Source of the DNA: Cupriavidus sp. AU9028
GTDB taxonomy: Bacteria; Pseudomonadota; Gammaproteobacteria; Burkholderiales; Burkholderiaceae
Length of the DNA: 64,000 nucleotides
NCBI RefSeq assembly: GCF_019795295.1
Contig: NZ_JAIMCG010000015.1
Location: 1-64,000 of the forward strand
Direction: 5' to 3'
Both the position numbers and the translations under genes were made by a program. Positions 7,534-8,641 of the stretch are shown one piece after another. A model generated the notes under the pieces. It searched no databases. It had not been told where the DNA came from and saw only the letters and a program-made list of their open reading frames with translations. Position 1 is the stretch's first letter; each line of letters begins with the position of its first letter.

Positions 7534-7562
7534 TTGTATTGAGCTGCGCGGGAATATACAAT
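7534..7562 (+). promoter_or_regulatory. promoter of the ParD-like/map operon
   Basis: TTGTAT (7534-7539) and TACAAT (7557-7562) are spaced by 17 bp. Transcription would begin near 7569, about 23 bases before the chosen GTG start. Confidence 0.65.
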
Positions 7563-7572
7563 CCATGTACGT

Positions 7573-7584
7573 TCCATATATGGA
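7573..7584 (+). promoter_or_regulatory. palindromic operator candidate at the transcription start
   Basis: TCCATATATGGA is a perfect 12-bp palindrome lying on the expected transcription start and touching the ribosome-binding site of the ParD-like gene. Antitoxins of the ribbon-helix-helix class usually repress their own operon through such a site; here this is an inference from position. Confidence 0.5.
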
Positions 7585-7591
7585 GAGCAGG

Positions 7592-7804
7592 GTGGGCATA
7601 GTCAATATCGACGACGATCTGCACGATCAGCTACGCAAGGCGAGCGCGGTATCGTGCCGGTCCATCAACGCACAAGCCGCCTTCTGGATAAAGGTCGGCA
7701 TGCTCAGCGAGATGAATCCCACGCTGTCTTTCAATGACATCGTGGCACGAGAGCTGAGAGCCGCTGGAGTCGTCGCGCAACCGATGAAAGCCGCATCGGC
7801 ATGA
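7592..7804 (+). CDS. ParD-like antitoxin-family protein
   Basis: The roughly 70-residue product begins VGIVNIDDDLHDQLRKAS and resembles the ParD-like antitoxin family (short ribbon-helix-helix type DNA-binding proteins). The segment SINAQAAFWIKVGML is typical of that family. I chose the GTG at 7592, preceded by GGAGAGCAGG, because it places the palindrome at 7573-7584 outside the coding region; ATGs at 7580 and 7565 are alternatives. The stop codon overlaps the ATG of the methionine aminopeptidase gene (ATGA), so the two are translationally coupled. No classical ParE toxin gene is next to it. It probably regulates its operon and may bind the aminopeptidase. Confidence 0.75.
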   Translation: MGIVNIDDDLHDQLRKASAVSCRSINAQAAFWIKVGMLSEMNPTLSFNDIVARELRAAGVVAQPMKAASA

Positions 7805-8568
7805 TCAAGACGCCGGGGGAGATCGCCTTGCTTGCGGAGTCGGGCAGGTTGCTGGCGGACGTGTTCGTCTATTTGGACGGACTGGATCTGATGGGGATGT
7901 CGACCATGCAGGTCAACGATCTGGTGGAGAACCTGATCGTGGAGCGACTGCAAGCGCGGCCGGCCAGCAAGGGGCAATACGGCTACGCCTTCTCGCTCAA
8001 TGCATCCCGCAACAACGTGGTCTGCCACGGGGTTCCCGCGACCACGGACGTCCTGCGAAGCGGGGACATCGTCAATTTCGACATCACGCTGGAGAAGAAC
8101 GGCTATATCGCCGATTCCAGCAAGACCTATCTGGTGGGCAACGTGTCACCGCCGGCCAGGCGGCTGGTGCAGGTGGCTTATGAATCGATGTGGAAAGGGA
8201 TCAGGGCGGTGCGTCCGGGCGCGCGACTCGGCGACGTCGGCTATGCGATCGAGCGGCATGCCAGGACGAACGGCTATTCGATTGTGAAGGAATACTGTGG
8301 CCACGGCATCGGGCGGGAGATGCACGAGGAGCCGCAGGTATTGCATTGGGGCAGGCCGCACTCGGGCTTGATGCTGCGAGAGGGCATGGTGTTCACCATT
8401 GAACCGATGGTGAACGAGGGCCGGGCCGCCGTTTTTACCGAGGACGATGGCTGGAGCGTCGTTACGCGCGATGGCAAGTTGTCGGCGCAGTTCGAGCACA
8501 CCGTGGCAGTGACTCGTGATGGCGTGCGGGTATTGACCCTGCGTCCCGGAGAAATCAGGCGCAGTTGA
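7801..8568 (+). CDS. map: type I methionine aminopeptidase
   Basis: The 255-residue enzyme removes the initiator methionine from new proteins. All five metal ligands of the family are present: Asp94 and Asp105, His168 (CGHGIG), Glu201 (FTIEPM) and Glu232 (QFEHT). They are shifted by exactly three residues from the E. coli enzyme. The substrate-binding His in NVVCHGVP is also present. It lacks an N-terminal zinc-finger extension. Housekeeping map genes normally sit next to rpsB; this copy instead overlaps a ParD-like antitoxin gene by 4 bp, so it is probably an accessory paralogue with a regulatory partner. A hairpin terminator follows 26 bp after the stop. Confidence 0.93.
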   Translation: MIKTPGEIALLAESGRLLADVFVYLDGLDLMGMSTMQVNDLVENLIVERLQARPASKGQYGYAFSLNASRNNVVCHGVPATTDVLRSGDIVNFDITLEKNGYIADSSKTYLVGNVSPPARRLVQVAYESMWKGIRAVRPGARLGDVGYAIERHARTNGYSIVKEYCGHGIGREMHEEPQVLHWGRPHSGLMLREGMVFTIEPMVNEGRAAVFTEDDGWSVVTRDGKLSAQFEHTVAVTRDGVRVLTLRPGEIRRS

Positions 8569-8594
8569 AGCTGGCGTAGTAGTTGAACGCGAAG

Positions 8595-8628
8595 AAAGCC
8601 CTGGAAGCGAAACCTTCCGGGGCTTTTT
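8595..8628. terminator. rho-independent terminator between convergent genes
   Basis: AAGCCCTGGAAG and CTTCCGGGGCTT form a stem with one G-U pair, followed by TTTTT on the plus strand and preceded by A residues. It can serve map and, from the other side, the alcohol dehydrogenase gene ending at 8642. Confidence 0.8.
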
Positions 8629-8641
8629 CCTTCGAAGAACG

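Follow-up and report, generated by a model that had tools for sequence, protein, structure and literature searches.

Antitoxins of the PF11903 (ParD_like) family occur in type II toxin-antitoxin operons with ParE-like (PF15781) or zeta (PF06414) toxins; the combination with zeta toxins is given in the TASmania paper (PMC6504116), in whose main text the word aminopeptidase is absent. The gene pair described here lies in a 64,000-nucleotide stretch of DNA from Cupriavidus sp. AU9028 (the window), and its regulator belongs to the same antitoxin family. Like the toxin-antitoxin operons, it has the small regulator gene in front, a short or overlapping junction and presumed autoregulation. The partner, however, is a methionine aminopeptidase (MAP), a normally essential enzyme that removes the initial methionine from new proteins; the regulator is on a branch of its own, and the operator that we propose for the window pair is absent from all 14 PF11903 loci compared that have no MAP.

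On the enzyme side, the closest known counterpart is E. coli Map, which shares with the window MAP its family (TIGR00500), the metal ligands, the catalytic histidines and the P1' residues. The window MAP differs in that it is not located beside rpsB, has its own regulator gene, and belongs to a type with the P1 pocket S-Q-Y/F-N-M-W where E. coli Map has C-Y-Y-C-F-W. The mycobacterial MetAP1c resembles it in being a second MAP beside a housekeeping one, and we know of no dedicated ribbon-helix-helix (RHH) regulator for accessory MAP paralogues of this kind. MetJ is an RHH repressor that acts on met-box operators composed of repeated 8-bp palindromes. By description, the window pair is similar, i.e., an RHH protein with repeated 8-bp palindromes, but differs in its octamer, YRTATAYR with 3-bp spacers (11-bp period). 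Our literature search for a ParD-like protein paired with a MAP found no paper whose title concerns the pair; among the papers that came up were PMC6504116, PMC7354421 and PMC3948609. The last of these, which combines MAP and ribbon-helix-helix, deals in its relevant part with two unrelated genes of one fosmid. Since public plasmid annotation names ParD-like and map side by side, databases do show the pair, but as far as our literature searches go it has not been discussed.

The ParD-like gene (7592..7804, + strand) encodes an RHH protein of 70 amino acids, a probable autorepressor with a Met-Gly N terminus, which scored 74.7 bits against PF11903 (cut-off 23). Its start is most likely the GTG at 7592 because homologues begin at that residue. 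The second gene (7801..8568, + strand) encodes a type I MAP of 255 amino acids that scored 277.3 bits against TIGR00500 (equivalog cut-off 171.35). The two genes overlap by 4 bp, with ATGA at 7801-7804, so that the first-pass annotation of a ParD-like gene overlapping a complete type I MAP gene was correct. It had also placed this MAP gene away from the usual rpsB locus, and the canonical map is indeed a separate gene of the same assembly (G000:C2:51106-51858), beside a divergent rpsB (PF00318). In this assembly (42 contigs, 4.68 Mb, 94.56% complete) the 7592-7804 gene is the only match to PF11903. A two-gene overlapping operon with the regulator first is the layout of type II toxin-antitoxin systems; the effector is a MAP and no member of a known toxin family, and PADLOC models gave no match at the window pair. 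On the 3' side of map, inspection by eye shows a hairpin (8594-8630), imperfect and accompanied by a run of T, which a strict terminator scan did not report. Further on, between 8642 and 18203, are genes for a zinc alcohol dehydrogenase, an MFS transporter, LysR and TetR regulators and a flavodoxin-fold reductase, and also molybdenum hydroxylase-like frames, the last identified by reading only.

The expectation that a ParE toxin would occupy the place of the MAP fits with the partners of PF11903 genes in 198 genomes (own and relatives). The 49 matches, in 47 genomes, have a MAP as partner in 28 cases (27 genomes), a ParE-like motif nearby in 15 and a zeta-type kinase in two, and four are unassigned; Pfam assigned PF15781 to all of the seven ParE-like neighbours on which it was tested and PF06414 to both kinases. 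Beyond the relatives, most members of the family have no MAP neighbour: in a class sample, PF11903 matches were present in 68 of 369 genomes, and eight of the 29 loci fetched lie beside a MAP. The 21 others include a ParD-like gene followed by an apparent MAP start that breaks off, a remnant (L054). For the phylum sample, 22 of 23 newly fetched loci, which were the best-scoring ones, adjoin a MAP. In a genome-contig collection, 79 of 80 kept loci (of at least 592) have a MAP on the same strand within 200 bp, and in the remaining one (L126) the MAP match starts late; some of these 80 loci repeat genomes of the other samples.

Linkage can also be viewed from the enzyme. A profile of window-type MAPs gave eight matches of at least 439 bits in the 369 class genomes, with the next match at 386 bits, and further 14 and 27 matches in the 198 relatives and in 349 phylum genomes. 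With the cut placed at the observed score gap and repeats removed, 42 copies were left, of which 40 adjoin a PF11903 gene. The exceptions are an intact window-type MAP in front of which a ParD-like frame survives only in its C-terminal part (L294, genome G058) and one that has no ParD-like gene (G815). Alpha-, beta- and gammaproteobacteria all have the pair, and plasmids carry it too, so the recurrence in proteobacteria that had been suggested for it is real and not confined to the window. Among 111 pairs, after repeated MAP sequences were dropped, the first in-frame MAP start is at -4 relative to the ParD-like stop in 96 and at -1 in four, while in the remaining 11 it lies between -8 and +13 or was not placed. 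In four of these pairs the MAP frame is below 240 amino acids. Another MAP over the cut-off was present in 26 of 27 pair-bearing genomes, and the exceptional genome is 70% complete.

In a MAP tree of 74 selected rows, the window-type MAPs form one group (100/100), and the paired groups A and B are set apart by branches with support 100/100 and 100/99, with unlinked MAPs between them. Group B sits among unlinked MAPs, one of which (L170) is inside the group and another (L168) beside it. The ParD-like tree (50 rows, 65 columns) is weak inside and has long branches for L051 and L052, and it splits 36 MAP-linked sequences, with groups A and B together, from 14 others at 100/99; 11 of these 14 have an assigned toxin-like partner. 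Because one regulator lineage thus goes with two MAP lineages, the partner is, judging from the trees, to be regarded as exchanged or recruited twice, and as a MAP each time. The same pattern is the best evidence on what is regulated and suggests that it is MAP activity itself. A contrary case is an Aureimonas plasmid (L087:9950-10655), on which a ParD-like gene of the MAP-linked kind is followed by a SnoaL-like gene and not by a MAP. Gly follows the initiator Met of the ParD-like protein in 111 of 111 pairs and in 22 of 22 phylum loci, and conservation in group A extends beyond the RHH part (F47 96%, E54 97%, A58 99%, G59 96%). A search for solved structural relatives of the protein gave none at E-values up to 1.

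The region in front of the pair contains a promoter-like sequence, TTGTAT (7534-7539) and TACAAT (7557-7562) separated by 17 nt (7534..7562, + strand), and a perfect 12-bp palindrome, TCCATATATGGA (7573..7584). Both are as first described, but the strict scan reported neither a promoter nor a terminator at the window pair, and the promoter assignment rests on comparison for that reason: of 85 homologous arrays, 62 have a TTG 16-19 nt 5' of the TATRAT in box 1, and five have one at a control offset. The palindrome, although real, does not stand alone. It holds the third box of a 30-bp array (7553..7582) of three YRTATAYR octamers with an 11-bp period (7553-7560, 7564-7571 and 7575-7582), a probable operator that matches at 22 of 24 positions, i.e., with two mismatches. 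This putative operator overlaps the -10 region and extends to the ribosome-binding region.

Arrays scoring at least 22/24 were present in 74 of 90 window-type upstream regions (the window included, and one of 91 left out as too short) versus 1 of 1800 dinucleotide shuffles; the motif was defined from the same sequences that were then scored, and related sequences are not independent. Among 22 further loci from the phylum sample, 17 score at least 21/24 and five score 15-20. Group B upstream regions reach 22/24 in only one of 16 cases, with a mean of 19.3 versus 14.9 in shuffles, and all 14 PF11903 loci without a MAP (13 with a ParE-like motif and the unassigned L047) score only 13-16/24. In the window assembly an array with at most three mismatches occurs once, at 7553-7582. 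The genome-wide site search covered the 12 genomes with window-type pairs among the 27 pair-bearing genomes, and eight pair-less congeners. All 12 sites with at most two mismatches in the former (13 pairs) are located at pairs, the thirteenth pair having three, and no such site was found in the eight congeners. Three-mismatch sites also occur elsewhere in these genomes, in pair-less genomes and with a reversed control pattern. Because the array is conserved at pairs and comparable sites are absent elsewhere in the searched genomes, we read the ParD-like protein as an autoregulator that is dedicated to its own operon and lacks a second target of similar quality. The self-regulation proposed earlier thus gains sequence support from a conserved, genome-unique array at the promoter of the pair. 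By eye, operator-like boxes are also visible 5' of the ParD-like gene of the Aureimonas plasmid.

The window MAP keeps the metal ligands D97, D108, H171, E204 and E235, all five as first reported, and both catalytic histidines, H79 and H178. Its P1 pocket consists of Ser59, Gln62, Tyr65, Asn70, Met177 and Trp221 (E. coli numbering), with the P1 and P1' positions taken from Table 2 of PMC10724148; the YHGY loop is part of the MAP pocket (PMC2238726). Across 92 window-type MAPs, counted with the four paired frames below 240 amino acids left out, Gln62, Asn70, Met177 and Trp221 are invariant, Ser59 is present in 91, and position 65 is Tyr in 69 and Phe in 23. The P1' residues C78, E204, M206 and Q233 are kept in all 92, Y168 is retained in 88 and replaced by Phe in four, and the metal ligands are complete in 92 of 92. 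All 16 window-type loci added later (L238 and L240-L254) have the same pocket. Group B MAPs (n = 17) have N59, Y62, C70 and Y177, with Leu at position 70 in two further group B loci (L233 and L235), and unpaired MAPs (n = 24) mostly have P59, Y62, C70 and F177. Four MAPs that are not linked to a ParD-like gene (L211-L214) also bear the window-type pocket. In the genomes of two of them (L211 in G213 and L212 in G362, one genus, 97% and 94% complete) this is the only MAP over the cut-off, and the pocket therefore seems compatible with general methionine excision. The window MAP has probably kept methionine removal despite its pocket changes.

The pair behaves as a mobile unit. DNA common to the window and eight pair loci of other Cupriavidus genomes is limited to 7552..8568 (+ strand) at its outermost, with one alignment per comparison in 8 of 8, and the flanks of these eight loci (about 0.7-2 kb) have nothing in common with those in the window. 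Four of the nine Cupriavidus loci have flanks in common with each other, which leaves six contexts. Another genome (G001) contains an 83% homologue of the DNA 5' of the window pair, on a contig that bears its own pair at a different place. No common family was found among 90 neighbouring ORFs (longest-ORF picks, 90 of 138), the commonest families accounting for at most five. That the two genes are neighbours by chance can be given practically no weight in view of the 40/42 linkage and the unrelated flanks; by conservation of the pairing, the overlap and the operator, the arrangement is, at the level of sequence, beyond chance.

We consider it likely that the window pair is a mobile cassette for an auxiliary MAP, autoregulated and laid out like a toxin-antitoxin operon. 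The ParD-like RHH protein would bind the three 11-bp-spaced octamers at its own promoter and repress the operon, as suggested by the co-conserved and genome-unique operator, and the 4-bp overlap would couple translation of the MAP to that of its repressor. Relief of repression would then provide extra N-terminal methionine excision on top of that by the rpsB-linked MAP. The presence of another MAP over the cut-off in nearly all pair-bearing genomes points to such a spare or auxiliary role. Because one regulator lineage accompanies two MAP lineages, the regulator may read the status of the MAP, and by analogy with the contact between antitoxins and toxins its C-terminal segment (residues 44-60) would most likely contact the enzyme. 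A generic autorepressor without MAP contact, i.e., one confined to transcriptional control that does not bind or sense MAP, would account for most of the data. It suffices for the operator and single-site results, and one SnoaL-like partner exists. We regard this alternative as possible but somewhat doubtful, because it accounts neither for two MAP lineages with one regulator lineage nor for the conserved C-terminal segment beyond the RHH part.

The earlier proposal of a toxin-antitoxin-like or enzyme-regulator couple holds for the couple, and less so for the toxin. In an addiction module, free MAP would be harmful, e.g., by trimming proteins that need their methionine, and the ParD-like protein would neutralise it. 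Regulator-first order, the 4-bp overlap and an RHH regulator with a putative operator at its own promoter agree with such a module, as do the conserved C-terminal segment, mobility and plasmid carriage, and the non-MAP PF11903 partners that could be assigned among relatives, 17 of 21, are toxin-like. We nevertheless find it very unlikely. The P1' residues, on which the second-residue rule depends, have hardly changed, and over-expression of E. coli MAP is not known to be harmful. Furthermore, the window-type MAP persists where the regulator is partly lost (G058) or the ParD-like gene is missing (G815), and in G213 and G362 the sole MAP above the cut-off has the same pocket type. These two genomes also bear on the idea that the P1 changes (C59S, Y62Q, C70N and F177M) serve removal of a residue other than plain methionine, e.g., oxidised methionine. 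The near-invariance of the four residues, with P1' residues and metal ligands kept, and their recurrence in all further window-type loci favor a changed substrate, but the pocket also occurs in the four unlinked MAPs, two of them without a second MAP over the cut-off, and we consider this explanation unlikely. MetAP2, moreover, takes methionine. In human MetAP2, Met384 is in the row of E. coli Phe177 (PMC10724148, Table 2). A spare MAP acting as a target resistant to a natural inhibitor was also considered and rejected. Met at the F309 position of human MetAP1, which we take to correspond to E. coli F177, reportedly raises sensitivity to ovalicin, the opposite effect for that drug class.

A more specific version of the auxiliary MAP reading, which we see as quite a long shot, has the ParD-like repressor as a sensor of N-terminal methionine excision. 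Its Met-Gly start would make it a good MAP substrate, and by homology this is where its DNA-binding beta strand is expected to begin. With too little MAP activity, repressor left unprocessed would fail on the operator and the spare MAP would be made. Met-Gly as a special signature is weakened by the fact that PF11903 frames without a MAP often have a small second residue as well (Ala, Ser or Gly). If the sensor reading were true, the pair would keep an essential step of protein maturation in balance as a mobile homeostat, derived from a toxin-antitoxin system whose toxin was swapped for a housekeeping enzyme. More generally, an antitoxin-type regulator appears here to serve a housekeeping-type enzyme, its partners coming from two MAP lineages, and the putative operator is sharp enough for bench testing. 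A gene annotated as a ParD-like antitoxin need not have a toxin as its neighbour.

One may ask under which conditions bacteria need another, inducible MAP, and why plasmids carry it. The ParD-like protein matches 161 plasmid records, 136 of them at less than 60% identity. In 12 plasmid stretches inspected, map adjoins the ParD-like gene in 10; the Aureimonas plasmid is different as described above, and one stretch (L295) is without annotation. Eleven Klebsiella/Salmonella plasmid records contain the pair segment at 99-100% identity, and four conjugative ones that were inspected share the block LysR - NTF2-like - ParD-like - map - alpha/beta hydrolase - LysR (L082:2396-8320, L083:12490-19271, L201:7566-14271 and L202:7567-14271), flanked by IS26 on both sides in three and on one side in the fourth (L082). 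The Klebsiella plasmid segment had no match in E. coli genomes at megablast sensitivity. In a phage collection, the ParD-like protein gave no match and the MAP gave 40 records, all below 60% identity; among the 20 phage matches listed for the MAP, 15 are unannotated and one is named as a Salmonella. The pair is also borne by two Acinetobacter plasmids with blaOXA-58 and by a 24-kb Psychrobacter plasmid. One Cupriavidus genome (G033) has two copies of the pair (L022 and L034), in unrelated contexts.
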